From an uncultured Collinsella sp. (GTDB lineage Bacteria; Actinomycetota; Coriobacteriia; Coriobacteriales; Coriobacteriaceae): a stretch of 64,000 nucleotides of DNA. The stretch is from the NCBI GenBank assembly GCA_900541695.1, contig UQKL01000009.1, positions 29,758 through 93,757 of the forward strand, in the 5' to 3' direction. The position numbers and the translations under genes were made by a program. Of the stretch, positions 6,798 through 53,404 are shown piece by piece (the stretch's first letter is position 1; each line of letters begins with the position of its first letter). A model generated the notes under the pieces. That model had not been told where the DNA came from and ran no database searches. It saw only the letters and a list, made by a program, of their open reading frames with translations.

Positions 6798-6926
6798 GTC
6801 TGCCCGGCGGCGCGAAACGTAAGGTTCCCTGCTCGGACAGTCCTGCTCGCACGGAGAGCACATTAAGTGCTCTCCGGCTCGTGCGGAACTCGCGATGAAC
6901 CTTACATTCCGCGTCGCCGGGCAGAC
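6798..6926 (+). repeat. Long nested hairpin element A
   Basis: Outer arms 6798-6826 and 6898-6926 pair over 26 of 29 positions. They enclose an internal loop with CCTGCTC..ACAGTCCTGC on the left and GTGCGGAACTCGCGATG on the right. The inner hairpin at 6853-6875 has the loop context CACATTAAGTG. Internal-loop and inner-hairpin sequences recur in elements B and C, whereas the outer arms do not. It lies 20 bp after the LTA-synthase-like gene. Confidence 0.85.
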
Positions 6927-6980
6927 GCCTCGGTGTTGAAGCGCGGCTTGTCATGAAAGCATCCGCAACATATATAAGTT

Positions 6981-7003
6981 GAAGGCCACATTAAGTGGCC
7001 TTC
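6981..7003. terminator. Free-standing CACATTAAGTG hairpin (terminator-like)
   Basis: GAAGGCCACATTAAGTGGCC and its 3' pairing strand form a 9-bp stem followed by TTTG on the plus strand. It is the same inner hairpin as in elements A, B and C but without the outer arms, and could terminate the LTA-synthase-like transcript. Confidence 0.6.
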
Positions 7004-7011
7004 TTTGTATT

Positions 7012-7340
7012 CGGAAAGTGTATCCCGGAATCTGCCTTCGGAATGGGACGCAGTTTCCACTTGAGGGCCTGTCGGGAAAGCGCATCCCACTTCAAGAGTA
7101 AATTCCGGGTCGCACTTTCCGCTAAGGCTCTCAAGCGGAAAGTGCATCCCATTCCAAGCCTTAATTCCGGGACGTAGTTTCCGGACAAGACATCAACCGG
7201 AAAGTGGGGACCACTCTGAGCGCCGATTCTGGGACACACTTTTCGAAACCCCGCCCATCCGGAAAGCCCGTCCCACTCCGTATACATCCAGGCATGAAAT
7301 CATCAGCTTATTAGGCCTTCTATCAATAAAGAGACACCCT
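7012..7340. repeat. Tandem hairpin array, copy 1 (about 62-bp period)
   Basis: About four and a half degenerate units of roughly 62 bp. Each is an inverted repeat with arms resembling CGGAAAGTGCATCCCATTCC. The array ends in an AT-richer tail that includes CAGCTTATTAGGCCTTC (7302 onward). A shorter copy in the same orientation with the same tail is at 16684-16947. The two copies bracket the SipW/surface-fibre operon. No Cas genes are nearby and the units are palindromic and divergent, so this is not a CRISPR array. Confidence 0.8.
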
Positions 7341-7459
7341 CCCGAGCGGCGGGCTCGAAGTTCATCGCGAGTTCCGCACGCAAAGAAGGCCACTTAATGT
7401 GGCCTTCTTCTTGTGCAGGACTGTAGAGCAGGGAACTTCGTGCCCGCCGCCCGGGAGGG
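7337..7459 (-). repeat. Long nested hairpin element B
   Basis: Outer arms 7337-7362 and 7434-7459 pair over 24 of 26 positions. Read on the minus strand, the internal loops CCTGCTCTACAGTCCTGC and GTGCGGAACTCGCGATG and the inner hairpin (7383-7409, with CACATTAAGTG) match elements A and C. It ends 22 bp from the 3' end of the surface-fibre operon and may terminate it. Confidence 0.85.
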
Positions 7460-7480
7460 CGTTGCGTTTAGAAGATGGAC

Positions 7481-8179
7481 CTAGCGCTTGTTCCTCCGGG
7501 ACAAAAGAAGCGCGGCTATAAATGCGATGATTGCAAGCGTCAGCAACACCAAAAGCAACGTGAGTGTGCTGTCGCCCGTTGCCACGAGACCGAGCAAGCC
7601 GGGCTTCTTGCTGCCAGCAGACTGCACGGGGATCTTCTCGCCGTCGTCCTCGGCGGTAATCTCCCAGCGAATGGTCTTGTTTGCGTCGGCAAGCTCGTTG
7701 CCTACCGACGTCGGGACACTTAGTTGCAAATTGAGCACCGTGCTGCCATCGCTCGCAAACGTTGCGACCTGCGTGGGATAGGCAAACACGCTGCCCGGCG
7801 TTCCCGTCTGGAGCCAACCGGCAGACGCATCGCCCGCCGACGCTGTCAAGGTAATGGGCGACAGCAGGTGTGCCGTCTCGTGATCGACAACGGCCCGCAC
7901 AAACACGCGTACCTGGGACTTTACGCCCGTGGCACGAACCTCGATCTGCTGCTCGCGCACATCGCCGGGCATCAGATCTTTAAAGGCCAAAAACAGATCG
8001 GGCTCCCCCGAAGAGCCCGTCGCTCCCGAGACCGTCAACTGTCGCGCATTTCCGTCATAGGCAATCGCGGGAGCGTCGGCAAACGCACGAGCAGGCGCGG
8101 CGAGCGCGACAATGCAGAAAATGGCCGCGACCACGCAGCGCAAGGAAGTCGCAACGTCTTTGCGAATTGGGAAAGCCAT
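7481..8179 (-). CDS. Secreted surface protein with C-terminal membrane anchor / LPxTG-like signal
   Basis: A 232-residue protein and the last gene of the sipW operon. A basic N-terminus and hydrophobic stretch (about residues 14-34, ending ARAFA) form a signal peptide. A beta-rich ectodomain follows, and the C-terminus has LVATGDS (about 198-204), a 24-residue hydrophobic helix and the tail SRRNKR. This order resembles a sortase sorting signal with LVATG in place of LPxTG, but no sortase lies in the window, so it may simply be a membrane anchor. The ATG at 8179 follows the upstream stop (8182) at once and has a G-rich site ahead. Role inferred: a base or anchor for the fibre proteins encoded upstream. 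Confidence 0.7.
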   Translation of the reverse strand: MAFPIRKDVATSLRCVVAAIFCIVALAAPARAFADAPAIAYDGNARQLTVSGATGSSGEPDLFLAFKDLMPGDVREQQIEVRATGVKSQVRVFVRAVVDHETAHLLSPITLTASAGDASAGWLQTGTPGSVFAYPTQVATFASDGSTVLNLQLSVPTSVGNELADANKTIRWEITAEDDGEKIPVQSAGSKKPGLLGLVATGDSTLTLLLVLLTLAIIAFIAALLLSRRNKR

Positions 8180-8181
8180 AC

Positions 8182-8751
8182 TTACGCACCCCCATGCGGC
8201 GGCACCAGCACGCCGTCCTCGACTGCACAGCCCCATGCCTCTGCAACTGCATCGTCGGGCGTGGATTGAATTGCCTGGGTCGAAATGTCAACGACCAGGT
8301 TCTTCCCACCTGCTTTATGCTCAGTCACGCTCTTGATGAGCACATCGGTTTTGTCCATCGGTGAAACGGGAGACGTCCAGTAGTAGAATCCGTCGGACGC
8401 GACAACCCAAGAGGCGGCTCTGTTGGAAGCAGATGCCGTGGACACACTGCCCCAGTCAATGACGTAGTCGGTGCCGGCAACCGGCTCATCCCACAGGCGC
8501 GCGCCATCCTGGTCCTGCCAGTAGATATCCACCGCAACACGCAGGTATGCCGGGGCCGAGCCCTTGTTTGTAATCGTGACGTCGCTCTTCACGTTGTCAT
8601 TGAGGTTCTCGTCCACCGAAGGTGCCACCGAACCAAAGCCAAACTCGTTGACCAGCACCCCCGTAACCGAAAGCCACGCAAAGGTACCGGCGGCGCCAGC
8701 CAACAGGAGAACACCAACAAGGAGGGCAACGATCTGCTTGCGCTTAGTCAT
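8182..8751 (-). CDS. SipW-dependent TasA/camelysin-like subunit (third of three)
   Basis: A 189-residue exported protein. It begins MTKRKQIVALLVGVLLLAGA, then GTFAWLSVTG (about 22-31), the signal-peptide form cut by SipW-type peptidases and shared by TasA, YqxM and camelysin relatives. The mature part has a beta-sandwich look with 'VTITNKGSAPAYLRV' (about 58-72), typical of this family. Its ATG at 8751 lies 1 nt beyond the stop of the 1,820-aa gene, so translation is probably coupled. With two further subunits and sipW upstream, it is likely a fibre or surface-layer component; whether it is a major or capping subunit is not visible. Confidence 0.78.
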   Translation of the reverse strand: MTKRKQIVALLVGVLLLAGAAGTFAWLSVTGVLVNEFGFGSVAPSVDENLNDNVKSDVTITNKGSAPAYLRVAVDIYWQDQDGARLWDEPVAGTDYVIDWGSVSTASASNRAASWVVASDGFYYWTSPVSPMDKTDVLIKSVTEHKAGGKNLVVDISTQAIQSTPDDAVAEAWGCAVEDGVLVPPHGGA

Positions 8752-8752
8752 C

Positions 8753-11700
8753 CTAGTCCTCCCTCCTCAGCGTGCCGTTTTCCCAAACATTCTTGGCACG
8801 CGAGCTGCCATCGACCCATTTGTCATTCGCGCGCGTGTTGACGCACGTCACCACCGCATCGCCCGCGCTCGAAGCAGACGAAATCGTCAGCTCGGCAGAT
8901 TTACCGGGCGCCTTGCCCGGCGTGCTCAGCTCGCCCTCGTAGCGCCATGCCCAATTCGTGTCTTCCTCGACGGTATAGATGCCCGTCGGCGCGGCAAATT
9001 GCACGCTGCCGACATACCAGGTCTCGCCGTCTTCGTCGCGCCTCTCGCTAACTTTCACCTCGACCATGCGCGTCTCGGCAGGAGAATCCTCCGACGCCTT
9101 GCGTGCCACCTTAAAGCGGAACGTTTGTCCCATGGCGCTGGCATCGGTGGTCTTTTTGACGATCGTCAGCGCATGGGTCTTGGCGAAGTCGAACACGGCA
9201 TTGCCGTCGCCTTGCTTGCCTTCGCCCGTCTTCTTGGACTCCAGGCGGTTGGCCAAGTCGAACGAACCGTTACCCGAGCCCAAGCTGTAGAGCGAGACAT
9301 ACTGGTCGTTAACGGGTTCCTCCGTCATGGACGCATCAGGACCGTAGCTCGCCCGCTTAACGGTAACAGTCAGCTGCGTCCCCATAAACGGCTCAGCAAA
9401 GCAGACCTTAAAGGGTGCTTTGTCGGCGCTATTGTCGACTGTGTTGGCGGCGTTGGGATCGAGCAGCCATTTAAGCTGCGCGGTGGTCATGGTTACGTGG
9501 TTCTCGGGGTCTGATGTATCCTTGGCGACCACGCGATACGTCACGGGATACAGGTCCATGTCGCCCTTAACCGACTCGTCCTTAAACTCATCCCAAGACT
9601 TCGCAGCGCCACCGTCAGGCACATATCGCCACTCCAGGAAGAGTTCGCGCACGTCACCGCTGGCCGCCCGTTCATCGAGCAGCGCGACGATCTTGGAGTG
9701 GGCGTCCGGGTCGTATGCCACGGACTTTTTCTCCATCTCGGGATTGCCGTCGTTGTCATAGACCGGGTTGCCGCTCTCATCCACCTTGGGAACATCGACG
9801 TTATGGACAAAGCCGGCGCCCGTCGCGCGCTCGCCGTCCGAGTCGACCGTCGCCGTAAAGACGACCGACCCGTCGACACCGTGATAGCGAACCTTATACG
9901 GCGCGATCTTGTACACCGCGGTGTAGGTCACGCTCTCAAAGGGCTCGCTGCCCTCGAGGGGATACTTCTCGTCATCGGTCAACAGGGTGTATTTGCCATC
10001 GGAATCATAGTCGCGCGACCAGCCGGCAAAGTCGTACTTGGTGCCGTCAATGCCCACAACCTCCTTGACAGCCTTGACCTCAAGAGAAATCTGGTCGCCG
10101 GAATCAGTACGGCCGAGACCGCGGACAAGAGCAGGATTCGCGAGATTTGAGTCGATGTTCGATTGAACGGTAACCAGGCTGGGACGGTAGACCGGGTACA
10201 GCTCCATGGGGGCCCTGACCACGGTAGAAGCACTCACCATGCGGATACCCTCCGACCAAGCGACATAGCCCTTGCCAGGTGCCGGCTTGGCTTCCGTCCA
10301 GCCCACGAAGGCGTTGAACGCACCTCCTGTATCCCTATCGATAGCGCTGACGTCATAAGTGGGCTTCGGGATGCTGCCATCAAGGTTGCCGAGCATATCG
10401 CCTTGCTGAGCAACTTTGCCGTCAACATCTTTGGCATTGAGATGGTACACGACCGCCAACGGCGAATAGTACGCCACAAATGTATAGGCCCCGCCGGGTT
10501 CCACCTGATGGGAATACGAGTTATCGCCGTTAGGTTCGATCTCTTCAGCTTCGCCATTCGGAAGCTCGATCTCAACCTTCTGCAACTTATACAGCTCACC
10601 GCCTGCTTTATAAACCGGAGTCGTGACGTCAGGGGTCACCGTTGCCGTAGCAGGGTCGGTGCCCGCGTTGATAACGGGATCGATGTCGTACCTAGGCACA
10701 TTGACCTTGTCCGTGCCCTTAAAACCGGCGCGATACAGGTTGGTGGTGTACCTAACATCGTACTTCGCGTACACCGGATAGGCATCCTGCCACTGGGTGA
10801 CCTTAAAATCTGGTTTCACCAGATACGGTTCGGCCTTATCCGGGTCAGAAGTGGTGAAGGAATCGCCCTCGACATCGTAGATATACTTCCAGACGTCAGA
10901 ACCCTTCTGGACCTCGGCGGTCGAAATCCAGCCCAGGAACTTATAGCCCGGCACGGCCATGTCGGCATCGGTCGGGGAAGCTTCGAGGGTCAGGGGGCTC
11001 TCATACGATCCCTTCTCACCATCTTCTGTCTTTTCGGCCACTTTAACCGACTTATTAACATGCGGGTAGTAATACGTGAACGTCGGATCCGCCCCGTTCA
11101 CCTTGGTCTGCAGCAAGTTACTCTCATAGCGCCGCGTGGCAGTCCTCACGACATTATCGCCCTTGTTGTAGAAATTAACGTCCGTGGTAATCATCGCGCG
11201 AACGTAGTACTTCTTATCTGTACGCACCATGCTCTCGATGGGATTTTTCACATATGTCCAATATTCACCATCGCGCTCAAGCGTCCAGAAATTCAGGCGA
11301 TAGCGATCATTCACCGGTTTGACCGTTACGTTCAGCGAAGCCGAAGTCCAAGTATCGCTTAGCGTTGCAGCGCCTGGAAAATCGGTATCGGCATAGAGAT
11401 TTTTTAGAGTATCGGCTCCCGTATCGTTTTTAACGTTGTGCGAGTACGCGTTAAGGGGACTCACGACAAGGGTTTCCTTCGTGAAGCGCGTGCCACACGT
11501 TTCATAACTATCCTTTATACCGTGGTCAACATGCTCCGGGCCCCAGTGGACGACGTTTTCACGCACGAAGGTACTACCGACGTTTTCCTCAAAGGGCGTT
11601 TGATAGCGATTCCAAACGGAACAAAGTAGCTTGCTGTCCGTAAACTCATGGTTGGTATAAGCCCGAACGTAATAATCCACTCGGTACTCAAAGCGGGCGA

Positions 11701-14215
11701 TGTAGGTATGCGGCGCGGTTAAATCGACATCGGCGGGGAGCGTATAGCTGGGGTCGCGGCTTACGCGCACCTCGAGCGGGGCATCCTCGGTTCCCTTGTT
11801 TTCATACCAACCCAGGAAACGATAGCCGTCGGGCAGCTGGCCCTCCTCGGATATAGCTTTACCGGATACGTCGAGCACCTGTACGGTATACGCGCTTGTG
11901 CCATCTTCTGCAGTCTCAACCTTAACGTCAGTTTTGCCCACACCGTCGCGCCGAGTCTGATCGTCGGTTGCATCCTGCTCATTGCCCTCAAACACCGTCA
12001 TGATGTTCGACACATAGTCGGTGTACACCGGATAAAAATCGGTAGGACCAAGCACAGTGATCTCGGTGCCGGCAGGATAGAACGCACCGGCATTTTTTAG
12101 CTCGGCGAGCTGGGTCGAGGTAATGGCTGCATAGCCACCGTTCATCTGAGCCTCTTCGCTCGGCTTCGTTGTCCAACCGATAAAGGTGGCGCTGGAAGAC
12201 AGCGTGCCACGATCGGTAGGAGCGGCGGGGTTGAGCTTCGCGCCGTAGCGATACCAATCGCCCGATTTGTCGTGTGCAGTGCCGCTCTGGCAATCGAGCG
12301 TTTCGCCCTGGACGTTATAGAACAGCACCTGCGCCTCGTACGAAGCGATAAACAGGTCATTGCCCTTAAAACCGTCGACCCCCTTGGCATTATCGGCGGT
12401 ATAGGTTGACGTTTTCTCGTGCGCCTCGCTCTTCTGGACCTGCTTGCCGGCAGTCACCGCAGCGTCATCGGTCTTGCCGTTAAACCAGCTGTTGTCATGA
12501 TCGATGCGGTTCACTTTAACCCCGGGCTCGCGGAACCAGCCCATAAAACGGTAGCCGCCGTTCTCCTTGGTCAGGCCATCAGGCTTTGCGGAGGTATCCT
12601 GCTTAAACGTTACCGATGTATCGCCCTGGGCCAAGCCCTGAGCCGTTCCCGCCAGCACGGCGCTCACGGCAAAGGCATACGGATCCGAGGTCGCCTGATC
12701 AATACCGAGTTTGGTTGCCGTAATAGTCGCGGTACCCGCACCGGGAAAATCGATCGTCGCCTTAACGCTTTGGCCATGCACGGGGATATTCAGCTTGTAA
12801 TCCATCGCCCATTCGTTTGCATGGTCGCCGCCCAGATAATCGTTATTGGCAGTCGAGCGCATGGTGCCGGCACAGAAGTCGTAGTCGTGCTCTTCCCATA
12901 GCTCACGCGTGGTATAGCGCTCGTCGTCCCACGGGCCATAGCCGTCGCCCTTGGTGGTACCGTCGCCGCCAAAAGAGGGGATCTTCTTCTTAGCCGCGGT
13001 ACCCTGGCTGCTGCCGTTTAGGCTCACGCTCGGCTTAAAGTAGCACTCGGTGACCGTGGCGTCGCTCTTGTTGGCGCGCGCAGCAATACCGCCCAGGTTC
13101 ACGTCGTTTTGGATGATGGGGATCACGGCGATGGGGTTGTATTGACGCGAGCTCAGGTCACCTGCAAAGTGGCTGCGGACGAGCTCATTGCCTTCTTTGG
13201 TTAAAATACGACCCGCCAGGCCACCCGCCCACGCGCGCGTCACGGCGACAACGCCCACGTACGACGCGGCATAGCTGTAGCACTGGGCCGTCGAGAAGCA
13301 GTCGATGATCTTGGCGTCACCTGCCATGCAGCCCACAAAGCCCGAGGCGTACACGTTGTTGCCGCCCAGGGCGCCAATGGCCACGTCGTACTTATTGGTG
13401 ACGTCGGTCATGCCCTTCTCGGCAATCGAGCCGTCGTCCTTACGCGTCGGCGTCACGCGGCAGTACTCGATAGTCGATTTCTCAACGTAGCCGGCAAACG
13501 CCGCCATATACAGACCCTCACCGCCGAGCGCCTGCACGCCCGAAGTCGTGTTGTTAACGGCGCGGCCACCACGTACCTCGCAGTTATAGAGGGTACAGCC
13601 GTCGAGCTCGCCGGCGATGAGACCGCCCTCAAAGCCTGCGTTGGTAATGAGGTTGAGAGCATTGTTGGCGCAGGTCACGTGCAGCGTGCTCTCCATGACC
13701 ATAACGTTTTCGAAACGCGTATTGACGGCCTTGCCCACGATAATGCCACCGCGGAAGTCCGCCCACACGTTGGCGTCCTTGACCAGGAAGTTTTTGATGG
13801 TGGCACCGTTGGTCTCGGCAAAAAATCCCGTATCGCGCTCGGGGTCAAAAGCGTCTTTATCGTAGTTCAGGCCCTCAACGGTGTGGTTTTGACCATCGAA
13901 CACGCCCTTAAACGGATGCTCCTTGTTACCAAACGACAGATGCTTAACGGTGTTTACAACGATGTCTTTCATGTCGTCGCTGTCGAGCTCAATGTCGTTA
14001 TCGAGATAAACGTGCCAGCCGGACGTATCGCGCTCGCGCGACAGCGCCACACACGACAAAAAGTCAGCCTCGTTTTTGATGTGGAATTCGTTTTTGTTCT
14101 CGGGCACGTCCTCGGCATGCACCGCCGTCGGCAGCGCCATAACGCAGCAAATGGCAATCGTCGCGACGGCAACTAGCCTGCTAAGCACGCCCCGGTTCAT
14201 GTTCTTGATCTTCAT
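8753..14215 (-). CDS. Giant modular surface protein with GLUG/beta-helix, InlB-like and Cna-B-like modules (1,820 aa)
   Basis: The signal peptide (residues 1-34, ending AVHA) is followed by a beta-helix-like region (about 40-430) with GLUG-type turns such as 'AGGLAGRILTKEG' and 'FVGCMAGDAKIIDCFS'. A long array of InlB-B-like repeats follows, each with an F/L-x-GW core (YRFMGWFREPG, ATFIGWTTK, YRFLGWYENKG, YKFLGWISTAE, YDFAGWSRD) and a closing Y-x-A-x-Y/F strand. Near the C-terminus, 'HALTIVKKTTDASAM' to 'GIYTVEEDTNWAWRY' is a Cna-B/SpaA-like domain. The end (NDKWVDGSSRAKNVWENG) has no sortase motif or membrane helix. The ATG at 14215 has GGAGG upstream, 3 nt after the previous stop. Likely role: adhesin or stalk shown with the co-encoded fibre subunits. 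The ligand is unknown. Confidence 0.82.
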   Translation of the reverse strand: MKIKNMNRGVLSRLVAVATIAICCVMALPTAVHAEDVPENKNEFHIKNEADFLSCVALSRERDTSGWHVYLDNDIELDSDDMKDIVVNTVKHLSFGNKEHPFKGVFDGQNHTVEGLNYDKDAFDPERDTGFFAETNGATIKNFLVKDANVWADFRGGIIVGKAVNTRFENVMVMESTLHVTCANNALNLITNAGFEGGLIAGELDGCTLYNCEVRGGRAVNNTTSGVQALGGEGLYMAAFAGYVEKSTIEYCRVTPTRKDDGSIAEKGMTDVTNKYDVAIGALGGNNVYASGFVGCMAGDAKIIDCFSTAQCYSYAASYVGVVAVTRAWAGGLAGRILTKEGNELVRSHFAGDLSSRQYNPIAVIPIIQNDVNLGGIAARANKSDATVTECYFKPSVSLNGSSQGTAAKKKIPSFGGDGTTKGDGYGPWDDERYTTRELWEEHDYDFCAGTMRSTANNDYLGGDHANEWAMDYKLNIPVHGQSVKATIDFPGAGTATITATKLGIDQATSDPYAFAVSAVLAGTAQGLAQGDTSVTFKQDTSAKPDGLTKENGGYRFMGWFREPGVKVNRIDHDNSWFNGKTDDAAVTAGKQVQKSEAHEKTSTYTADNAKGVDGFKGNDLFIASYEAQVLFYNVQGETLDCQSGTAHDKSGDWYRYGAKLNPAAPTDRGTLSSSATFIGWTTKPSEEAQMNGGYAAITSTQLAELKNAGAFYPAGTEITVLGPTDFYPVYTDYVSNIMTVFEGNEQDATDDQTRRDGVGKTDVKVETAEDGTSAYTVQVLDVSGKAISEEGQLPDGYRFLGWYENKGTEDAPLEVRVSRDPSYTLPADVDLTAPHTYIARFEYRVDYYVRAYTNHEFTDSKLLCSVWNRYQTPFEENVGSTFVRENVVHWGPEHVDHGIKDSYETCGTRFTKETLVVSPLNAYSHNVKNDTGADTLKNLYADTDFPGAATLSDTWTSASLNVTVKPVNDRYRLNFWTLERDGEYWTYVKNPIESMVRTDKKYYVRAMITTDVNFYNKGDNVVRTATRRYESNLLQTKVNGADPTFTYYYPHVNKSVKVAEKTEDGEKGSYESPLTLEASPTDADMAVPGYKFLGWISTAEVQKGSDVWKYIYDVEGDSFTTSDPDKAEPYLVKPDFKVTQWQDAYPVYAKYDVRYTTNLYRAGFKGTDKVNVPRYDIDPVINAGTDPATATVTPDVTTPVYKAGGELYKLQKVEIELPNGEAEEIEPNGDNSYSHQVEPGGAYTFVAYYSPLAVVYHLNAKDVDGKVAQQGDMLGNLDGSIPKPTYDVSAIDRDTGGAFNAFVGWTEAKPAPGKGYVAWSEGIRMVSASTVVRAPMELYPVYRPSLVTVQSNIDSNLANPALVRGLGRTDSGDQISLEVKAVKEVVGIDGTKYDFAGWSRDYDSDGKYTLLTDDEKYPLEGSEPFESVTYTAVYKIAPYKVRYHGVDGSVVFTATVDSDGERATGAGFVHNVDVPKVDESGNPVYDNDGNPEMEKKSVAYDPDAHSKIVALLDERAASGDVRELFLEWRYVPDGGAAKSWDEFKDESVKGDMDLYPVTYRVVAKDTSDPENHVTMTTAQLKWLLDPNAANTVDNSADKAPFKVCFAEPFMGTQLTVTVKRASYGPDASMTEEPVNDQYVSLYSLGSGNGSFDLANRLESKKTGEGKQGDGNAVFDFAKTHALTIVKKTTDASAMGQTFRFKVARKASEDSPAETRMVEVKVSERRDEDGETWYVGSVQFAAPTGIYTVEEDTNWAWRYEGELSTPGKAPGKSAELTISSASSAGDAVVTCVNTRANDKWVDGSSRAKNVWENGTLRRED

Positions 14216-14218
14216 AGG

Positions 14219-14866: not shown

Positions 14867-14895
14867 TACGTTCGCCAATCGTCGATAAGGGGGGG

Positions 14896-14946: not shown

Positions 14947-14962
14947 GGAGGGGGTTGGATTA

Positions 14963-15649: not shown

Positions 15650-15719
15650 CGTTCTCTTCCTTTCGAGAATCGTCTTCCCCGGCAACGGCCCCTACCGCCG
15701 CCGACGCTTTTCCCTGCCG

Positions 15720-16683: not shown

Positions 16684-16947
16684 AACCGTGTCCCAGAATT
16701 CACGTCCGGAGTGGGATACGGCTTCCGCTTGTGCCCCCGTCGGGAAACCACATCCCACTCCGATCACAAATTCCGGGTCGCACTTTCCGCCAAGACCCTC
16801 AACGGGAAACCGCATCCCATTCCAAAGGCAAATTCCGGGACGCATTTTCCGAAACCCCACCCATCCGGAAATCCCATCCCACTCCGCGCACATCCGGGCA
16901 TAGAACAATCAGCTTATTAGGCCTTCCATCAATAAAGGGGCGCCCTC
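16684..16947. repeat. Tandem hairpin array, copy 2 (about 62-bp period)
   Basis: About three degenerate palindromic units with arms like CGGGAAACCGCATCCCATTC. They are followed by the same AT-rich tail as copy 1 (CAATCAGCTTATTAGGCC, then a TCAATAAAGG-like end). It is in the same orientation as the array at 7012-7340; together they bracket the 9-kb surface operon. Confidence 0.8.
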
Positions 16948-22935: not shown

Positions 22936-23147
22936 GTATAGGCGCTCCCTATCATCATCTCTCTTCAATCTGATTCATGATAGTACGGAGAGCCCTGGAG
23001 ATGCGTAAGCAACTCGTTACAGATGTAAGGGCGACGTTCGCTAGCGCCCAAGGCATGTAGCAGCCGATGTTTTGGCAACGCCAGCGAGCGGCATAACGCC
23101 AGGGATTCAATTATCAGATAAATGTGACCCTTCAGGCGGTTTTGGTC

Positions 23148-23252
23148 GGCTACCCGCGAGTGCCGGCAGGGCGCTTGGTAGTCGCGCGATCCCGCAGGCG
23201 AAGCCGAGGACCAGCGAGACACCAAGCGCCCTGCCGGCACTCGCGGGTAGCC
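23148..23252 (-). repeat. Long nested hairpin element D
   Basis: Perfect 32-bp arms (23148-23179 with 23221-23252) enclose a 41-nt loop. Read on the minus strand the loop contains GGTCCTCGG and CCTGCGGGATCGCGCGAC, which resemble the internal loops of elements A-C and match element E. It lies just beyond the 3' end of the SRP RNA gene and upstream of the ABC exporter pair. Confidence 0.85.
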
Positions 23253-23265
23253 GCGGCACCAAAAA

Positions 23266-23384
23266 GCGCCTGCGCACTCGATGGATTCGGATGCCCGACA
23301 GAGGCTCCTTATGGCTGCTTCCTTCCGGACCTGACCAGATTCGGAACATGTCGTCATCCGAACCCATCGAACGCGCTAGGCGCT
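23266..23384 (-). ncRNA. ffs: Signal recognition particle RNA, small bacterial type (4.5S)
   Basis: On the minus strand the conserved Ffh-binding domain GGTCAGGTCCGGAAGGAAGC and the following CAGCC are present at about 23310-23335. The flanks form one long rod: the 5' side with CGATGGGTTCGGATG pairs with CATCCGAATCCATCG on the 3' side, then GCGC with GCGC further out. The 3' end runs into TTTTT (23261-23265), giving a terminator. Ends are estimated from pairing and the promoter, within a few nucleotides. The RNA works with Ffh and FtsY in co-translational membrane targeting. No Alu domain is seen, as usual for the short form. Confidence 0.95.
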
Positions 23385-27177: not shown

Positions 27178-27298
27178 CCCGAGGGCAACCTACCTTTCCG
27201 GCGCACTCCGCAGGACGAAAGAACCTCCGCCGCACGAAGTGCGCAGCGGAGGTTCTTTCATGTCCGAGGACGCGCCGGAAAGGTAGGTTGCCCTCGGG
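27178..27298 (-). repeat. Long nested hairpin element E
   Basis: Perfect 27-bp arms (27178-27204 with 27272-27298), an internal loop (minus strand GTCCTCGGACATG and CGTCCTGCGGAGT) and a perfect 14-bp inner stem (27217-27230 with 27246-27259) capped by a small hairpin. It lies 18 bp after the ilvE stop and may terminate it. The GTCCTCGG and CCTGCGG loop sequences match element D. Confidence 0.85.
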
Positions 27299-27316: not shown

Positions 27317-28369
27317 TTATGCGACGGTGTAAACCCAGTTGTGCTTATCCTCGACAGCACCGGACTGAATACCAGTCAGGGTCTCGCGAAGCTTCTTCAT
27401 CACGGGGCCGATCTCGGTGCAGCCAGCCGGGAAGGTCACGGTCTCATCGGCACCGTAGACCTTGTTGTCGATCTCGCCCACCGGGGAGATGACGGCAGCG
27501 GTGCCGCACAGGCCGCATTCCACAAAGGTGCCGGCCTTGACCTCGGCCCACTCGACGGGACGCTGGTCGACGGTCATGCCCAAATCCTCGGCAACCTGAA
27601 CGAGCGAGCGACGGGTGATGGAGGGCAGGATGGAGTCGGTGTGCGACTGAGGAACGACGAGGGTGCCGTTCTCCTTCACGAACAGAACGTTCGCGCCACC
27701 GGTCTCCTCGACATAGGTGCGGGACTCGGAGTCGAGATACAGGTTCTCGGCATAACCCTCGCGATGGGCCTCCATCGTGGGCTTGAGGGACATGGCGTAG
27801 TTCAGGCCGGCCTTGATATTGCCGGTGCCGTGCGGTGCGGCGCGGTCGTACTCGGAAACGCGCAGCTTGACGGGCTTGAGGCCGCCCTTAAAGTACGGAC
27901 CGACCGGGGTCACGAGAATGCGGAACGTGTACTCAGGAGCGGGAGCCACGCCGATCACGTCACCGGAGCCGATCATAAACGGACGCACGTACAGGGTCGC
28001 ACCAGAACCGAAGGGCGGAACCCAAGCGGCGTTGGCAGAAACGACCTGCTTGACGGCCTCAACAAACTTATCCTTGGGGAACGGGGGCATCTCGAGGCGC
28101 TGGGCAGAGTTATACATGCGCTCGGCGTTCATGTCGGGACGGAAGCAGACGATGCTGCCGTCCTCGGCGGTGTAGGCCTTCAGGCCCTCAAAGACCTCCT
28201 GGCAATAATGGAAGATGCCGCCGCACTCGGAGACATGCAAGGTGTGGTCGGTGGTCAGGCCGCCCTCGTCCCACTCGCCGTCCTTCCAATGAGCCTCGTA
28301 GCTGTAATCGGTCTTCATGTAGCCAAAGCCGAGGCTACCCCAATCGATATCCTTCTTCTCGACAGTCAT
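27317..28369 (-). CDS. ilvE: Branched-chain amino acid aminotransferase
   Basis: A 350-residue fold-type IV PLP enzyme that makes or breaks down valine, leucine and isoleucine by exchange with 2-oxoglutarate. Visible signatures are 'FEGLKAYTAEDGSIVCFRPD' (about 73-92), the PLP-lysine region 'GTGNIKAGLNYAMSLKP' (about 180-196) and 'NLYLDSESRTYVEETGGANV' (about 207-226). The ATG at 28369 has AAGGAG 7 nt upstream; the longer frame to 28519 is leader. A TACAAT-like -10 is seen near 28535 on the minus strand, giving a leader of about 150 nt. The leader has no clear run of branched-chain codons and no T-box motif. Confidence 0.93.
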   Translation of the reverse strand: MTVEKKDIDWGSLGFGYMKTDYSYEAHWKDGEWDEGGLTTDHTLHVSECGGIFHYCQEVFEGLKAYTAEDGSIVCFRPDMNAERMYNSAQRLEMPPFPKDKFVEAVKQVVSANAAWVPPFGSGATLYVRPFMIGSGDVIGVAPAPEYTFRILVTPVGPYFKGGLKPVKLRVSEYDRAAPHGTGNIKAGLNYAMSLKPTMEAHREGYAENLYLDSESRTYVEETGGANVLFVKENGTLVVPQSHTDSILPSITRRSLVQVAEDLGMTVDQRPVEWAEVKAGTFVECGLCGTAAVISPVGEIDNKVYGADETVTFPAGCTEIGPVMKKLRETLTGIQSGAVEDKHNWVYTVA

Positions 28370-44255: not shown

Positions 44256-44290
44256 CTGACTCGTACTTGAAACGCATCAAAGGGGCCGCT

Positions 44291-45403: not shown

Positions 45404-45430
45404 CACGTCAGCCAGTATGCCAAAACGCCA

Positions 45431-45476
45431 CTTAAGCAAAAGAGGGCCGACTATTGCCGAACCTCTTTTGCTTAAG
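45431..45476. terminator. Bidirectional terminator between the LacI and HAD genes
   Basis: The perfect 15-bp stem CTTAAGCAAAAGAGG/CCTCTTTTGCTTAAG (45431-45445 with 45462-45476) lies between two convergent genes. Confidence 0.75.
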
Positions 45477-45516
45477 CGCAAAGTCAACCGATTGTTCGTT
45501 TCAGCTCCGCAATTGT

Positions 45517-46167: not shown

Positions 46168-46272
46168 ATCGATCCCCTCACCGGATTGCATTACTGCCAC
46201 TCTAGCGCACTTTACAAACTTGTATATAACGTATATAGCATATTGCACTTTCGTTACATAAGCGGAAGTCTT

Positions 46273-46300
46273 ATGACAGGCAGCCCGGTAGGATTATAGT
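46273..46300 (+). promoter_or_regulatory. Promoter candidate of larE
   Basis: ATGACA (46273-46278) and TATAGT (46295-46300) are 16 bp apart and 35 nt upstream of the larE start codon. Confidence 0.55.
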
Positions 46301-46334
46301 TTTCGACCGAGTACTCAATGGTAAGGATCGTTTC

Positions 46335-47213: not shown

Positions 47214-47248
47214 CCTGCCAAAAAGGGACAGATTTATTTTGGCAGGTT
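47212..47248. repeat. GGGACAG-core hairpin, AACCTGCC arm type
   Basis: AACCTGCCAAAA and TTTTGGCAGGTT form a 12-bp stem around AGGGACAGATTTA. It begins at the larE stop codon (the AA of TAA), as the copy at 40153 does with the GntR gene. Confidence 0.8.
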
Positions 47249-47416
47249 TTATCTGGGGAAACGCCAGACAGCCCCATATACACAACCGCCGCAGCTCCAT
47301 ATGAGGCAAATGAATCAGCAGCGTCTATTCCAAATCTTGAGTATTTGTTCGGCGGGACGGCCTCTGCCGGCTCCTGCTAGACTGGTAGATTCCCAACCGT
47401 CCATCCAGGAGCCTCA

Positions 47417-48400: not shown

Positions 48401-48464
48401 GGCCGACCGCGCCTCCCGTAACCAAAAAAATGATCCGTTTTCCTCCGTCCCCAAGGGATCAAAT

Positions 48465-48493
48465 AAGGCCGCCCCGGTTACCCAGGGCGGCCT
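48465..48493. terminator. Terminator between the nuclease and EF-G-like genes
   Basis: AAGGCCGCCC/GGGCGGCCTT with a 9-nt loop followed by TTTCG. The two genes are convergent, so it may serve both. Confidence 0.85.
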
Positions 48494-48529
48494 TTTCGTC
48501 AGCACCTACATTGCAGGCAACGCCACACG

Positions 48530-50605
48530 CTACTTGGCGCGACCCTCCTCATAGCGCTCGACCAGCTTGGCCTGAACGTCATAAGGCACCTGCTCGTAGC
48601 CGGCGGGCTTCATGGTAAAGTCGCCCGTGCCGCGCGTGATGGAGCGCAGACGCGTCGAATAATCCGTCAGCTCGGCCAGCGGCGCCTGGGCAATAACAAC
48701 GGTGTCGCCGCGTTCATCGGTCTCCATGCCCGTCACGCGACCGCGCGAGGCCGAGATATCGCCCATCACGGCGCCGGCGTAGCTCTCGGGGATGGTCACC
48801 GTGATTTCCTCGATGGGCTCCAGCACCACCGGGTCGGCATCGGCGCATGCCTTGCGCAGGCCGATGCGAGCCGCCGCGCGGAACGCCATCTCGTTGGAGT
48901 CGACGCTGTGATACGAGCCGTCGTACACAGCCACGCGGATGCCAGTAAGCGGGTAGCCGGCAATAATGCCGTCCTTCATGGTCTCCTGAACGCCCTTGTC
49001 CACGGCGGGAATGAGCGAACGCGGAATGCGACCGCCCACGACCTCGTCTACAAACTCATAGCCATCGCTCGTGCCGTCGGGCCCAATGAGTGGCTCAACG
49101 CGCAGCCAGCAGTCGCCATACTGACCGGCACCGCCAGTCTGCTTCTTGTGGCGACCCTGGGCACTTGCCGTGCGGCGAATGGTCTCGCGATACGGAATAC
49201 GGATCGGCACGCTCTTGGCCACGACCTTGGTGCGATCCTCAAGGCGATTGAGCAGGACCGAAACCTGCGCCTCACCCACGGCGGAGATGATAGTCTGGCC
49301 GGTCTCCTCGTCGCGGTCGATGCTCATGGTCGGATCGGCCTTGCAAGCCTTCTCGATAAACGTGTAGAGCTTCTCTTCGTCGCCGCGATTCTCGGCCTCG
49401 ATGGCGATACGGTACTGCGAGTTGGGGAACTTAAACGCCGCAGCCTCGACCTTACCGGTAATCGAGAGCGTATCGCCCGTCTCGGCAGCCAGCTTGGGCG
49501 CCACGATGATATCGCCGGCATACGCGTGCCCGACCTCGGTCATGTCGCGGCCGCACATCACATACAGGTGAGCCAGACGCTCGCCCTTGCGCGTGCGCGC
49601 ATTGACCAGCTCAAGGCCCGGCTCAAGCGTGCCCGTCAGCACCTTGATAAAGCTGATGCGACCCTGCTGCGGATCGGCCAGGGTCTTAAACACAAACGCC
49701 ACCGGGCGGTCATCGTCACTCGAGATCTTGAGCGAATCGCCGTCGATGAGCGGCATCTCGCCGTAGTCCGTCGGCGCCGGGAAGTACGTGGCGATGTCGT
49801 CCATCAGCGAGTTGACGCCCTGCTCCTTAATGCAATCGCCTGCAAAGACCGGCACAAAGATGCGCTCGGCGATCGCCTTCGACAGCAGGCCCTCGAGCTC
49901 TTCCTGCGTCAGCGTCTCCTCGCCTTCCAGGTATTTCATCATCAGCTCGTCGTCGGCCTCGGCCACCAGCTCGCACAGATGGTCATGGGCCTGTTCGGCC
50001 TGGGTACGATACTCCTCAGGAATCTCCGACTCAACGGCTTCAGCGCCGTTGCAATGGCGCGCCTTCATGCGCACCAGGTCGATGATGCCGTCAAAGTCCT
50101 CGCCCTCGCCCCAGGGAAGGGTCACGGCGCCCAGACGCGTACCAAAGCGCTCCTGCAGCAGGTCCATCGTGGTCGCAAAGCTGGCCTCGGAACGCGACAG
50201 ACGGTTTACGAACACCGCACGCGCCAGACGCAGGTCCTCGGCGGCATACCAGAGCTTAACCGTCGTAGGCTGCGGGCCGGCCTCGGCGTCGACAACAAAC
50301 AGAGCCGTCTCGCAGACGCTCATCGCGGCATAGGCGTCGCCGATAAAATCGGGATAGCACGGGGCATCGAGCACGTTGATGCGCGCGCCCTTCCAGTCGA
50401 TCGGCGCAATGGTCGTCGAGATGGAAAATGCACGCTTGACCTCTTCGGGGTCATAGTCAAGCGTGGGCTTGGTGCCGTCGTGGCCGCCCAGGCGGGCGGT
50501 CTTGCCGGAAAGGTGGAGCATGGCCTCGGCGAGTGAAGTCTTGCCCACCCCGCCTTGGCCTACGAGCACCACGTTCCTTACGTTACCGGTCTTGGGAGCA
50601 CCCAT
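48530..50605 (-). CDS. Elongation factor G-like GTPase
   Basis: A 691-residue translational GTPase paralogue with EF-G domains I-V. P-loop GQGGVGKTS lies at 16-24. The G3 place reads 'DAPCYPDFIG' instead of DTPGHVDF, lacking the catalytic His, and the G4 place reads 'FVNRLSRSEA' instead of NKMDR. Domain IV 'GRHKKQTGGAGQYGD' (about 483-497) and domain V 'EITVTIPESYAGAVMGDISA' are conserved. GTP binding seems possible but hydrolysis and base specificity are probably altered; it is unlikely to be the main EF-G. The ATG at 50605 has a perfect AAGGAGG upstream; the longer frame to 50716 is leader. Similar EF-G-like proteins are widespread and of unknown role. Confidence 0.9.
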   Translation of the reverse strand: MGAPKTGNVRNVVLVGQGGVGKTSLAEAMLHLSGKTARLGGHDGTKPTLDYDPEEVKRAFSISTTIAPIDWKGARINVLDAPCYPDFIGDAYAAMSVCETALFVVDAEAGPQPTTVKLWYAAEDLRLARAVFVNRLSRSEASFATTMDLLQERFGTRLGAVTLPWGEGEDFDGIIDLVRMKARHCNGAEAVESEIPEEYRTQAEQAHDHLCELVAEADDELMMKYLEGEETLTQEELEGLLSKAIAERIFVPVFAGDCIKEQGVNSLMDDIATYFPAPTDYGEMPLIDGDSLKISSDDDRPVAFVFKTLADPQQGRISFIKVLTGTLEPGLELVNARTRKGERLAHLYVMCGRDMTEVGHAYAGDIIVAPKLAAETGDTLSITGKVEAAAFKFPNSQYRIAIEAENRGDEEKLYTFIEKACKADPTMSIDRDEETGQTIISAVGEAQVSVLLNRLEDRTKVVAKSVPIRIPYRETIRRTASAQGRHKKQTGGAGQYGDCWLRVEPLIGPDGTSDGYEFVDEVVGGRIPRSLIPAVDKGVQETMKDGIIAGYPLTGIRVAVYDGSYHSVDSNEMAFRAAARIGLRKACADADPVVLEPIEEITVTIPESYAGAVMGDISASRGRVTGMETDERGDTVVIAQAPLAELTDYSTRLRSITRGTGDFTMKPAGYEQVPYDVQAKLVERYEEGRAK

Positions 50606-50845
50606 GATGACCTCCTTGCAGGGCCGCGCGCAATGCGCGACGCCAACGGGGAGAGTTCGCGGTCGGTGCCGTCCCGGGAGCAGCATGGTCGGCAGCCGAG
50701 CCGACTCACCCTCCAAATGTCCTATGCCACCACCCTACCCTTGCATCCGCCTGTCCATGCACACCTTTCGGCGCACGTATGAATACAGACGGCGAGAGGC
50801 CAGAGCAAACGTGCGAGGCGATTATTAAACCCCATCGATACAAAT

Positions 50846-50884
50846 AAAAGCCGCCGCAGGCCGTAAGACCTGCGGCGGCTTTTT
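50846..50884. terminator. Terminator after the amino-acid ABC operon
   Basis: A 15-bp stem (50846-50860 with 50869-50884), AAAAGCCGCCGCAGG type, with T-runs on both strands, 20 nt past the ATPase stop. Confidence 0.9.
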
Positions 50885-50902
50885 CTCAATATATAGCTGA
50901 GC

Positions 50903-51667
50903 CTAGCCCTCGATACGGCTCAAGAACTCACGGGTACGTTGCTCACGCGGGTGATCGATAACCTGCTCGGCAGGACCCTCCTCGACAATGCGACCGCCGT
51001 CCATAAAGACCACGCGGTCGGCAACATCGCGCGCAAATTGCATTGCGTGGGTCACGATCACCATCGTCATATTCTGCGCGGCAAGGTCTTTAATGACACG
51101 CAGCACCTCGGCCGTTAGCTCGGGATCGAGCGCCGAAGTCGGCTCGTCAAAGAACAAGATCTCCGGGTCGAGCGCCAAGGCGCGGGCGATACTCACACGC
51201 TGTTGCTGACCACCCGAAAGCTCACATGGCACCTTGTTCTCGTTGCCCGTAAGCCCCATCTGCGCGATCAACTCACGCGCACGCGCTTCGGCCTGCTCGC
51301 GCGGACGCTTGAGTACGCGAACCGGAGCGTCGGTGATGTTTTTCATCACCGTATAGTGCGGGAACAGATTGTAGTTCTGAAACACCAGACCAAACCGCGA
51401 GCGCGCCTGTTTAGGCACATCGCCCTTTGCGTACACCGCGCCCGAACCCGCATCCGTCGCGACGGCAAGGTCGCCAAACGAAAGCGAGCCACCGTCGAGC
51501 GTCTCGAGCAGCGTGGCGCAGCGCAGCAGCGTGGACTTACCGCCACCCGAAGGCCCGATAATCGCCACAACCTCGCCACGCTTTACCTCGAGTGAGATAT
51601 CCTTGAGCACCTTATTGCCGCCAAACGCCTTGCGCGCGTTCGCTATATTCATTACCGAATTAATCAT
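50903..51667 (-). CDS. Polar amino-acid ABC transporter ATP-binding protein
   Basis: A 254-residue ATPase of the GlnQ/HisP type. Walker A is GPSGGGKST (about 37-45), 'FQNYNLFPHYTVMKNI' holds the Q-loop (about 92-107), signature LSGGQQQR, Walker B 'ILFFDEPTSALDP' and switch 'VIVTHAMQF'. ATG 51667 overlaps the permease stop by 8 nt; ATG 51652 would also be possible. It is the last gene of the operon binding protein-permease-ATPase and energises import. It may also serve the orphan permease at 42483-43130. Confidence 0.95.
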   Translation of the reverse strand: MINSVMNIANARKAFGGNKVLKDISLEVKRGEVVAIIGPSGGGKSTLLRCATLLETLDGGSLSFGDLAVATDAGSGAVYAKGDVPKQARSRFGLVFQNYNLFPHYTVMKNITDAPVRVLKRPREQAEARARELIAQMGLTGNENKVPCELSGGQQQRVSIARALALDPEILFFDEPTSALDPELTAEVLRVIKDLAAQNMTMVIVTHAMQFARDVADRVVFMDGGRIVEEGPAEQVIDHPREQRTREFLSRIEG

Positions 51668-52313
51668 GGTAGTAATCCAATTTTTTCTCGGCGGCGCCCA
51701 GCAGCATCTCGACCACAAAGTTAAAGACCCAGTAGATCAGCGCCGCAATCGCAAACGGCACCATGCTCACCTGCGAGGCAACCAGCGCCTTGGCGGTCGA
51801 GAACATCTCACCCACGCCAATGGCAAACGCCAGCGACGTGTCCTTGACCAGCGTGATGATCTCGTTGCCCATCGCCGGCAGAATACGCTTGGCGACCTGC
51901 GGCATCACGATATACAGAAACGTCTGCGTGCGCGAATAGCCCAGCACCTCGGCGGCCTCATATTGACCGCGCGGAATCGACTGCAAGCCCGAGCGATAGA
52001 TCTCGGCAAAGTAGCCGGCGTAGTTGATGATGAACGCCACAACGCACGCCGTCCATTTGGAATCGGGCGTGAGCGAGATGCCGAACACGTAATACGGGGC
52101 AAAGTAGATGGCAAACATCTGCAGCATGAGCGGCGTACCGCGCATGACCGAAATGTAGATGCGCGCAATCCAGCGCAGCGGCGCGACCTTGCTCATGCGC
52201 ATAAACGCCACGGGAATTCCCAGGGGAATCGACCCGAGCAGCGTCAGCACAAACAGCTGCAAACTGACCAAGAATCCCTGGCCAAGCATCTGCATCATGA
52301 CTTGGATAGACAT
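51660..52313 (-). CDS. Polar amino-acid ABC transporter permease
   Basis: A 217-residue permease of the HisM/GlnP type with about five helices. The ATPase-docking loop reads 'GQYEAAEVLGYSRTQTFLYI' (about 121-140), followed by VMPQVAKRILPAMGNE. Its ATG overlaps the stop of the binding-protein gene (TAATG), and its own stop lies inside the start of the ATPase gene, so the three are tightly coupled. Confidence 0.95.
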   Translation of the reverse strand: MSIQVMMQMLGQGFLVSLQLFVLTLLGSIPLGIPVAFMRMSKVAPLRWIARIYISVMRGTPLMLQMFAIYFAPYYVFGISLTPDSKWTACVVAFIINYAGYFAEIYRSGLQSIPRGQYEAAEVLGYSRTQTFLYIVMPQVAKRILPAMGNEIITLVKDTSLAFAIGVGEMFSTAKALVASQVSMVPFAIAALIYWVFNFVVEMLLGAAEKKLDYYHD

Positions 52314-53173
52314 TATTTCAAAACCCAGTTGTCGAAGGATAGACCGTAATCTGCATATTTATCACACAGGTCCTTGACCGTGCCGTCCTCATAGAGTGCC
52401 TTGAGCGACTCGGTCACGGCATCGGCCGACTTGGTGTCGCCCTTCTTAAAGCCGACGGCGTAGTGCTCGCTGGACAGCGGCTCATCAAGCTGTGTATAGG
52501 CATCGGGCTTGGCGGCAAGCTGATACTGGGCAATCGAGAGGTCACAGGCGACGGCATCGACTGCACCACTCTCGAGCTGCATAAACGCCGTGTTGTACTC
52601 ACCGATGGTATCGAGCGTGGCAAACGTCGCGGCCAAATCCTTCTGGTCGCCCTCGAGCACATCCTGTGCAGCGGAATCAGTCTGGGTAATCACGGTCTTG
52701 CCGGCAAGATCGTCCCAGCTCTTGATGCCTGCATCCTTCTTTACCACCAGCACCTGCTCGTTGAGCATGTACGGCTCGGAGAACGTGTAGTCGTCCTCGC
52801 GGCCCTCCATGGTAAAGCCGTTCCAGATACAGTTGATGGCGCCCGAGTTGAGCAGCGTATCCTTGGCATCCCAGTCGATGGCCTCGTATTTGACCTCCCA
52901 GCCCTGCTTATCGGCAACAGCCTTGGCCAAATCGAGATCAAAGCCGGTGTACTCGCCATCGTCGCCCACAAAACCATACGGAGGATAGGACTTATCAAAG
53001 CCCACCACGAGCTTCTTGGACTCCGCAGCGCCCTTCACATCCTTGGCCGCGGCAGAGCCAGCGGCGGAGCCCTTGCCGGCGCCACCGCCGCAACCGACAA
53101 GACCAAGGCCAAGCACCGTGGCGAGCGAGCCGGCTAGACCAACAAACTGACGACGAGACATATCGGTGTTCAT
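52313..53173 (-). CDS. Polar amino-acid ABC transporter substrate-binding lipoprotein
   Basis: A 286-residue SBP_bac_3 protein. MNTDMSRRQFVGLAGSLATV carries a twin-arginine-like SRRQF, then lipobox LVGCG (Cys near residue 28) and a Gly/Ala/Ser tether. Ligand-domain signatures are 'VVGFDKSYPPYGFVG' (about 56-70), 'YTGFDLDLAKAVADKQG' (about 75-91) and 'GKTVITQTDSAAQD'. This fits uptake of a polar amino acid; which one is not clear. The ATG at 53173 has GGGGGA 7 nt upstream. It heads the operon; the upstream region holds element C. Confidence 0.95.
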   Translation of the reverse strand: MNTDMSRRQFVGLAGSLATVLGLGLVGCGGGAGKGSAAGSAAAKDVKGAAESKKLVVGFDKSYPPYGFVGDDGEYTGFDLDLAKAVADKQGWEVKYEAIDWDAKDTLLNSGAINCIWNGFTMEGREDDYTFSEPYMLNEQVLVVKKDAGIKSWDDLAGKTVITQTDSAAQDVLEGDQKDLAATFATLDTIGEYNTAFMQLESGAVDAVACDLSIAQYQLAAKPDAYTQLDEPLSSEHYAVGFKKGDTKSADAVTESLKALYEDGTVKDLCDKYADYGLSFDNWVLK

Positions 53174-53265
53174 GGTATTCCCCCTTGATGACACTTTAGT
53201 TAGGTAAAGTGAGTCATGTAACGTTCAGAATCATACACTTTAGCGTGATAGAGCACAAGGCGAGT

Positions 53266-53404
53266 TTGCCCGCCGCGTGAGGGGTGTGGGGGTTAAGTTT
53301 CCTGCTCTACAGTCCTGCTCACGACGGAGGCCACATTAAGTGGCCTCCTGTTCGTGCGGAACTCGCGATAAACTTAACCCCCACACCCCTCACGCGGCGG
53401 GCAA
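53266..53404 (+). repeat. Long nested hairpin element C
   Basis: Perfect 35-bp arms (53266-53300 with 53370-53404). The internal loop is CCTGCTCTACAGTCCTGCTC on the left and GTGCGGAACTCGCGAT on the right. The inner hairpin at 53326-53348 contains CACATTAAGTG. It lies between two divergent genes, so it is not simply a terminator of either. Confidence 0.9.

Follow-up and report, generated by a model that had tools for sequence, protein, structure and literature searches.

Long nested hairpins in a 64,000-nucleotide stretch of Collinsella DNA (the window) belong to a family of palindromes that is dispersed through intergenic DNA of the order Coriobacteriales, stands at gene edges and has apparently not been described before. 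The explanation that is favored, with a little better than even confidence, is a REP/BIME-like palindrome family that is maintained at the level of DNA, by copying between the arms of each hairpin and by recombination in its core. In this family nature offers base pairs that covary almost totally, likely, at least in part, through DNA copying between arms; because covariation is a main acceptance test for new structured RNAs, the family can serve as a calibration set as well as a warning. As a repeat of gut bacteria that extends across an order, has allelic forms and a flipping core, and keeps a fixed polarity at the edges of genes, it also makes the mutation of palindromes and their use by the cell testable in natural populations.

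The five hairpins of the window are real and a chance origin is far off: all were found where the sequence-only reading had placed them, their RNA folds range from -82.7 to -107.3 kcal/mol, with z between -10.0 and -16.2, and when each element was shuffled 200 times, 0 of its shuffles folded as well as the native sequence. An inverted-repeat search gave outer arms of 27-35 nt in all five, which, as that reading had described, are unlike between copies and self-complementary (90% in A and B, 100% in the other three). The host lineage is the Collinsella aerofaciens complex. Element A (6797..6927, plus strand; arms 6797-6827 and 6897-6927, core 6829-6895) lies in sense orientation 20 bp 3' of the stop codon of a sulfatase-domain gene (4477-6777, plus strand) and forms an inverted pair with element B (7334..7462, minus strand; arms 7334-7363 and 7433-7462, core 7365-7431 on the minus strand), which lies in sense orientation 22 bp 3' of the stop codon of the gene at 7481-8179 (minus strand). 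Element C (23147..23253, minus strand; perfect 33-nt arms; minus-strand sequence GGTCCTC[GGCTTCGCC]TGCGGGATCGCG) is in sense orientation about 22 bp past the 3' end of the SRP RNA (23275-23370, minus strand), and element D (27178..27298, minus strand; perfect 27-nt arms; minus-strand sequence GTCCTCGGAC[inner]GTCCTGCGG) is in sense orientation 19 bp 3' of the stop codon of an aminotransferase class IV gene (27317-28369, minus strand). Element E (53266..53404, plus strand; perfect 35-nt arms, core 53302-53368) is flanked by divergent genes for a solute-binding protein (52313-53173, minus strand) and a methyltransferase (53551-54960, plus strand).

The five had been read as having the same build, and they do form one class with a fixed loop core, but they fall into three sequence types: A, B and E, with near-identical cores, are type I; D is type II; and C is less certainly a divergent third type, provisional because its membership, judged by eye and by folding, rests on motif resemblance, since among 43 Collinsella genomes the exact C core pattern was found in 1, the nearest relative of the window. 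The motif that had been described as shared is in place, but in B, C and D it is on the minus strand. The inner sequence that had been said always to occur in A, B and C, CACATTAAGTG, is present in A, B and also E, but absent from C (23148) and D; a fourth copy, at 6987-6997, is part of a terminator-like hairpin outside any element. Each copy is a nested palindrome whose constant portion is an asymmetric internal loop. The type I core consists of ACAGTCCT and TGCGGAACT surrounding an exchangeable inner stem-loop, and outside it are arms of about 20-49 bp whose sequence changes from locus to locus, so that elements of 105-165 bp have the core in common and not the arms.

Many further copies were found in relatives of the host, as the sequence-only reading had expected. 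Type I occurs in 14 and type II in 13 of 39 genomes. In the order, a pattern scan found type I in 116 of 247 genomes, and a covariance model, with up to 15 candidates per genome scored, found matches in 129; G002, G050, G058 and G172 are among the genomes in which the model had no match. A phylum sample of 396 genomes gave 23 positives, of which three are outside the order (one of them in the same class), versus three genomes with hits in the reversed control, so a spread beyond the order was not accepted. Among the three, G369 (L375) has arms that are clear by eye, G472 has weak arms and G251 looks like a chance match. An origin from phages was rejected because none of the 39 viral stretches in which the pattern occurs has arms scoring at least 10, and an origin from plasmids because the single record, 899,693 bp long, contains murB and tsaD and appears to be a piece of chromosome. 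The sequence-only reading had recognized no named family, and none of the elements in the whole window or in ten other loci has an Rfam match at gathering score, and literature searches found no earlier description of these hairpins. Weak hits to miRNA families at 7018-7164 fall within another repeat.

The position of the elements relative to genes is polar. Among 56 copies in ten genomes, which represent ten other genera, a coding sequence lies no more than 45 bp from the left end in 43 and from the right end in 3; 33 of the 56 are in sense orientation within 45 bp after a stop codon and 10 are in antisense orientation directly ahead of a start codon. With five elements from other Collinsella genomes added, 35 of 61 placed elements follow a stop codon at a median distance of 15 bp and 11 are antisense with a start codon no more than 45 bp away. 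This set, reached through the covariance model built on Collinsella copies, misses arms scoring below 13 and cores that depart from the regular expression, includes orthologues, draws about 20 elements from one genome (G102) and covers part of the model matches listed. Genes were called by codon-score scripts, with ten of the start-adjacent protein names confirmed (two as relatives only) in addition to a few gene positions. Placement after stop codons in the sense orientation, repeated in the window, where all elements except E sit 19-22 bp past the 3' end of a gene, would suit a structured cis-acting RNA of untranslated regions, in which selection on the RNA duplex would preserve the pairing of the arms and the loop would bind a protein or resemble a ribozyme. 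The nearly invariant core also fits such an RNA, but the antisense copies directly ahead of start codons and the lack of an Rfam match do not, and this explanation is possible but on balance unlikely. The genes behind the 11 start-adjacent antisense copies are cysS (2), leuS, valS, thrB (2, the second of which, at L306, was named from the start of its sequence only), pyrE and genes for a phosphoglycerate-dehydrogenase-like protein, a C69 dipeptidase, triose-phosphate isomerase and a sensor-kinase-like protein. The aminoacyl-tRNA synthetase and amino-acid genes among them might recall a T-box-like amino-acid sensor on the strand opposite to the core, but no Rfam T-box was found in ten loci that included both cysS, leuS, valS and one thrB, and most copies are 3' of unrelated genes; such a sensor is very improbable.

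Base-pair covariation, which had been named as a check, is almost complete: 23 of 24 base pairs in the arms covary, with 388 two-sided and 11 one-sided cells, although two of five measures are not clearly above shuffles. Pairs changed on both sides number 27 versus 24.6 in shuffles (15 of 500 shuffles as high), and further pair types number 69 versus 67.9 (219 of 500 as high). The strong covariation speaks for the cis-RNA, but G.U, which an RNA duplex would tolerate, is not in excess on the core strand: mismatches at 4,916 positions of 168 arm pairs are 31 G.T, 48 A.C and 23 other, in a count that favors well-paired arms because cores with an arm score below 12 were left out. The class in sense orientation after stop codons likewise has no excess (15 G.T, 21 A.C). 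Over 37 nearest-allele tree edges, which leave out arms scoring below 14 and three edges below 0.5 identity and which join some neighboring loci through shared flanks, the changed pairs of near-identical alleles are 24 two-sided, versus 1.39 expected by coincidence, and 27 one-sided, and there are five paired-indel positions. These coupled changes suggest that one arm was copied from the other; since the arms change together in this way, matching changes need not be proof of RNA structure. Because 27 of the 51 changed pairs are still one-sided, copying would not be immediate; selection that keeps the arms paired could be at work as well, or in its place. Of the earlier proposal that selection on structure had shaped the arms, the keeping of pairing while the arms change stands, but not selection as the sole reading, given the two-sided changes, the paired indels, the lack of a G.U excess and the inverted cores described below. 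That reading had also counted descent-related arms with unpaired changes against its class, and this was found to some extent: the arms of orthologous copies share descent, and one-sided changes occur beside two-sided ones.

The core is inverted inside kept arms at L113 and in L329 versus L335, and less surely in L022 versus L230 and L233; inversion between close alleles is another point against the cis-RNA. Inner hairpins have been exchanged between elements, and unmatched arms are joined in two elements, L346 and L087. The favored explanation, arm copying with core recombination, would need self-complementarity of the outer arms and hardly any particular sequence. A replication intermediate would fold and the polymerase, by template switching, would copy one arm from the other, by which arm mutations would become paired and the core would occasionally be inverted, while recombination through the near-identical core would swap inner hairpins and alleles. 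Two-sided changes without a G.U excess, paired indels and core inversion are all expected from such copying without selection on RNA. Template switching is reported to homogenize the arms of inverted repeats and to invert spacers (PMC8604942; PMC8794818); the hairpins treated there are at single loci, whereas here an order-wide family has a conserved core. The left-end polarity at genes falls outside what arm copying explains. Arms group by locus with few exceptions, and no stem sequence is common to all copies; left arms have a degenerate consensus near the core only, which suggests some selection on sequence. Seven pairs of elements taken as separate loci have at least 13 proximal bp in common, but one of these, L329/L335, is really one locus with an inverted core, and the pairs are too few to claim that arms spread between loci; in L041/L063 the inner segment is also common.

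Mobilization of the folded single-stranded element by an enzyme of known class, foremost the REP-associated Y1 transposase (RAYT), would account for the dispersal of the copies and for the empty site observed at locus 2a, and 144 of the 247 genomes have Y1_Tnp genes. Inspection by eye showed GCAG or GTAG ahead of type II arms, and a GCAG or GTAG before the palindrome is a feature of REPs. However, G006, G047, G096, G102 and G215 have 12-35 model matches without a Y1_Tnp match; both core halves never occur in 20 Y1_Tnp loci from other hairpin surroundings; and arms are common to different loci in few cases. A search for Y1_Tnp in the 247 genomes gave no link and no dedicated mobilizing enzyme was found, so that this mobility is improbable. 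Copying of the arms from the target on insertion was also rejected, with neither arm present in three empty 2a sites. At two other loci the variants looked as if the whole intergenic stretch had been replaced.

In kind, the closest known repeats are REP/BIMEs, which are likewise short palindromes repeated across intergenic DNA, often just past stop codons, and which also form inverted pairs, as do A/B, 2a/2b, L007 and L306. By analogy with REPs, the elements may, as hairpins or cruciforms flanking coding sequences, act in cis on mRNA ends, ribosome release or supercoiling. The attC sites of integrons keep their structure over varying stem sequence, have extrahelical bases and are positioned after genes, and by this description the present elements resemble them; but conserved parts are at the hairpin base in attC, which occur in cassette arrays, and inside the hairpin here, where single sites stand at conserved loci. 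MITEs, Correia elements and ERIC/RU repeats are, like these elements, short, dispersed, non-coding and able to fold; terminal repeats are common to their copies, whereas in the present family it is the terminal arms that are not shared. REPs are described as 20-40 bp long with a tagged sequence in common (PMC3733652), and differ from the Collinsella elements, which are longer, with a common core and unshared arms, and have no link to RAYT. A tentative reading, rather unlikely, is that a putative dedicated enzyme or binding protein of Coriobacteriales reads the internal loop on the folded single strand or cruciform while the arms are renewed by copying; since only folding would then matter, almost any arm sequence would be allowed, and the elements would be a class of repeats defined by shape, fixed inside and free outside, that marks gene edges. 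Collinsella-1 RNA (RF01700) is found in the same order but has another structure; it gave the sole Rfam hit in the ten other loci, at 22-171 of L255, away from the element.

The five hairpins proposed in the sequence-only reading are all present in the window, at 6797..6927 (A, plus strand), 7334..7462 (B, minus strand), 23147..23253 (C, minus strand), 27178..27298 (D, minus strand) and 53266..53404 (E, plus strand), and in each case none of 200 shuffled sequences folds as stably (z -10.0, -10.5, -12.7, -14.8 and -16.2). Outer arms of 27-35 nt enclose a core and an exchangeable inner stem-loop; the arms of C, D and E are perfectly self-complementary, as had been claimed, and those of A and B are 90% paired. 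A core of ~67 bp, CTGCTC..CAGTCCTGC[inner hairpin]GTGCGGAACTCGCGA, is common to A, B (minus strand) and E, which constitute type I; on the minus strand, the core of D (type II) is GTCCTCGGAC[inner]GTCCTGCGG and that of C (provisionally a third type) is GGTCCTC[GGCTTCGCC]TGCGGGATCGCG. From inspection by eye, aided by folding, we take UCC:GGA pairing with an extra purine alongside and an asymmetric loop adjoining the inner stem to be the putative motif common to A through E. C is the weakest case: among 43 genomes of the genus, its exact core is present in one, the nearest relative of the window, which has the entire element unchanged.

The elements were expected to recur in relatives, and they do: the type I pattern matches 14 of 39 genomes, all from a single genus, and copies number as many as 18 (eight forward and ten reverse in genome G001), whereas its reversed control has no match in the 39 genomes. 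Type II is found in 13 of the 39 with 5-9 copies each. When 44 type I copies were used to build a covariance model, its matches extended to 129 of 247 genomes of the order, spread over 38 of 99 genera. A pattern without structure, ACAGTCCT-N12-42-TGCGGAACT, matches 116 of the 247 (33 of 99 genera), with no reversed-control match among the genomes listed. CAGTCCT is exact in 27 of 28 distant copies listed from ten genera and CAATCCT in the other, with differing arms. Across the phylum, the same pattern matches 23 of 396 genomes, three of them outside the order, and its reversed control matches three genomes; judged by eye, arms are clear in one of the three out-of-order genomes, which is of the same class, and weak in another. 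The family is therefore one of the order Coriobacteriales, perhaps extending to the class. None of 39 viral stretches examined that carry the pattern has arms. At the E locus, where named records at 89-96% protein identity belong to Collinsella aerofaciens and other Collinsella, all 22 orthologues have an element, truncated in three by the end of a contig, and the elements fall into three or more allele classes; the count leaves out a 23rd match (G022), which is short and lies at another place.

The arms of orthologous elements are related to one another, and, judged by sequence, arms depart from random because left arms have a degenerate consensus near the core, about TAAGGTTN, preceded by a G-rich stretch. 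The test of covariation that had been suggested gave a strong signal in an alignment of the 44 copies. Of the 24 arm pairs, 23 are changed on both sides. Two-sided changed cells number 441 in the structure as a whole, versus 133.4 in shuffles; the arms account for 388 of the 441 and have just 11 one-sided cells. Two further measures hardly exceed shuffles, namely pairs changed on both sides (27 versus 24.6) and further pair types (69 versus 67.9). The sequence-only reading had attributed changing arms with kept pairing to selection on structure; the covariation stands, but other evidence favors copying between arms as its source. RNA on the core strand would favor G.U mismatches. Among 168 distinct arm pairs (4,916 positions), 98 are perfect and the mismatches are 31 G.T, 48 A.C and 23 other, the opposite of the RNA expectation, with a difference that is not significant (P 0.07). 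Between nearest alleles of identity at least 0.90 (37 edges), 24 pair changes are two-sided and 27 one-sided, compared to 1.39 coincidences by chance, and five positions are paired indels; at identity of at least 0.95 (23 edges), 11 are two-sided and 11 one-sided, compared to 0.34. The core is inverted within kept arms in locus L113 versus beta alleles at the E locus and in L329 versus L335, and, with less similar arms, in L022 versus L230 and L233. Strand symmetry, coupled pair changes and inverted cores thus argue for copying between arms at the DNA level. In two reports, template switching between inverted-repeat arms homogenizes the arms and inverts the spacer (PMC8604942), and creates and maintains hairpins (PMC8794818). 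Copying of one arm from the other would yield both paired arm changes and a flipped core, and we infer it to be the main cause of arm covariation; selection for pairing, to which the covariation itself is favorable, may also contribute, and both processes could shape the arms together. Covariation this strong may not need an RNA, a general lesson because of which the family is rated above an ordinary repeat.

Alleles also recombine. Inner hairpins are unlike between orthologues with similar arms (L016 versus L018, L007 versus L014), L346 has the left arm of one allele and the right arm of another, and the arms of L087 are likewise unmatched; a crossover within the core would produce such unmatched arms. 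Arms are weak in 14 of 150 cores examined. In G008 (locus L046), element B has recombined with a nearby terminator-like hairpin and half of B is lost. That hairpin, at 6980-7005 of the window (GAAGGCCACATTAAGTGGCCTTC), has the loop common to the inner hairpins of the elements. Comparison of strains for presence or absence, as had been suggested, revealed that G015, G010 and G013 lack the element at locus 2a (one of an inverted pair, 2a/2b), with neither arm left. At L057, 14 genomes of the complex are without the element and retain a short hairpin, GGCGGAG..CTCCGCC, with a stem that matches the outer arm of an allele in which the element is present.

The elements are polar with respect to genes. 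A, B and D are sense and lie 19-22 bp downstream of a stop codon (of a sulfatase-domain gene, the minus-strand gene 7481-8179 and an aminotransferase class IV gene, respectively), C is about 22 bp past the 3' end of the SRP RNA, also sense, and E is between divergent genes. Among 82 type I entries, many follow a stop codon in the sense orientation, others being antisense or farther off; of 16 type II entries, 14 are sense at a distance of 8-28 bp past a stop codon. A set of 61 copies comprises 56 from ten genera other than Collinsella and five from other Collinsella genomes. In 35 of the 61 the left end follows a stop codon by at most 45 bp (median 15 bp), and in 11, antisense, it precedes a start codon by at most 45 bp; the right end is near a coding sequence in five. 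Among the 56 copies, which are not all independent, 43 left ends (33 stop, 10 start) versus three right ends (two stop, one start) adjoin genes (P 5e-10). The 11 genes whose start codon adjoins the left end are cysS (2), leuS, valS, thrB (2), pyrE, and genes of a phosphoglycerate-dehydrogenase-like protein, C69 dipeptidase, triose-phosphate isomerase and a sensor-kinase-like protein; the thrB of L306 is assigned from only the first part of its sequence. Inverted pairs recur (A/B, 2a/2b, the L007 pair and L306). Because both sense and antisense placements are found, a role on mRNA alone fails to account for the polarity of the left end. Any function ascribed to the elements would be inferential.

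A candidate mobilizer, Y1_Tnp, is encoded in 144 of the 247 genomes, with none in G006, G047, G096, G102 and G215 despite 12 to 35 covariance-model matches in each; both core halves never occur together at 20 Y1_Tnp loci examined, seven of which have one half and several of which have other hairpins. REPs are 20-40 bp and tagged according to PMC3733652, and PMC12306157 places them partly near stop codons, those within 15 nt being said to stall ribosomes; Collinsella and Eggerthella are mentioned in neither. The elements do not qualify as REPs, since their stems have no common sequence and no link to a RAYT was found; they may still work in the way REPs do. Some Y1_Tnp genes adjoin GGGGACAG or GGGGACGTG hairpins, and GGGGACAGACTTAAATG hairpins at L032 (4205) and L064 (4154) resemble a hairpin at 57269-57330 of the window (TGTTAATTGGGGCCAGACTTAAATG); these are perhaps a genuine RAYT-linked REP family. 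No Rfam family matches at the elements, in agreement with their proposed status as no named family, and searches of a collection made up mostly of open-access papers turned up no earlier description.

Other repeats and records were encountered. A dispersed repeat of inverted CGGAAAGTG..TCCC units, at 7012-7290 and 16692-16777 of the window, is unrelated to the hairpins and gives weak miRNA-family scores in Rfam. Collinsella-1 RNA (Rfam, 43.2 bits) is at 22-171 (minus strand) of L255, whose genome belongs to a different family within the order. NZ_OY725717.1 (899,693 bp), a record labeled as C. aerofaciens TSDC17.2-1.1 plasmid 6, has murB, galE, tsaD and 12 E-core-like places, and looks like a piece of chromosome. 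Another hairpin, with conserved arms, is present in three copies in Collinsella tanakaei ET30 (L161, 1930-2304 and 6069-6217).
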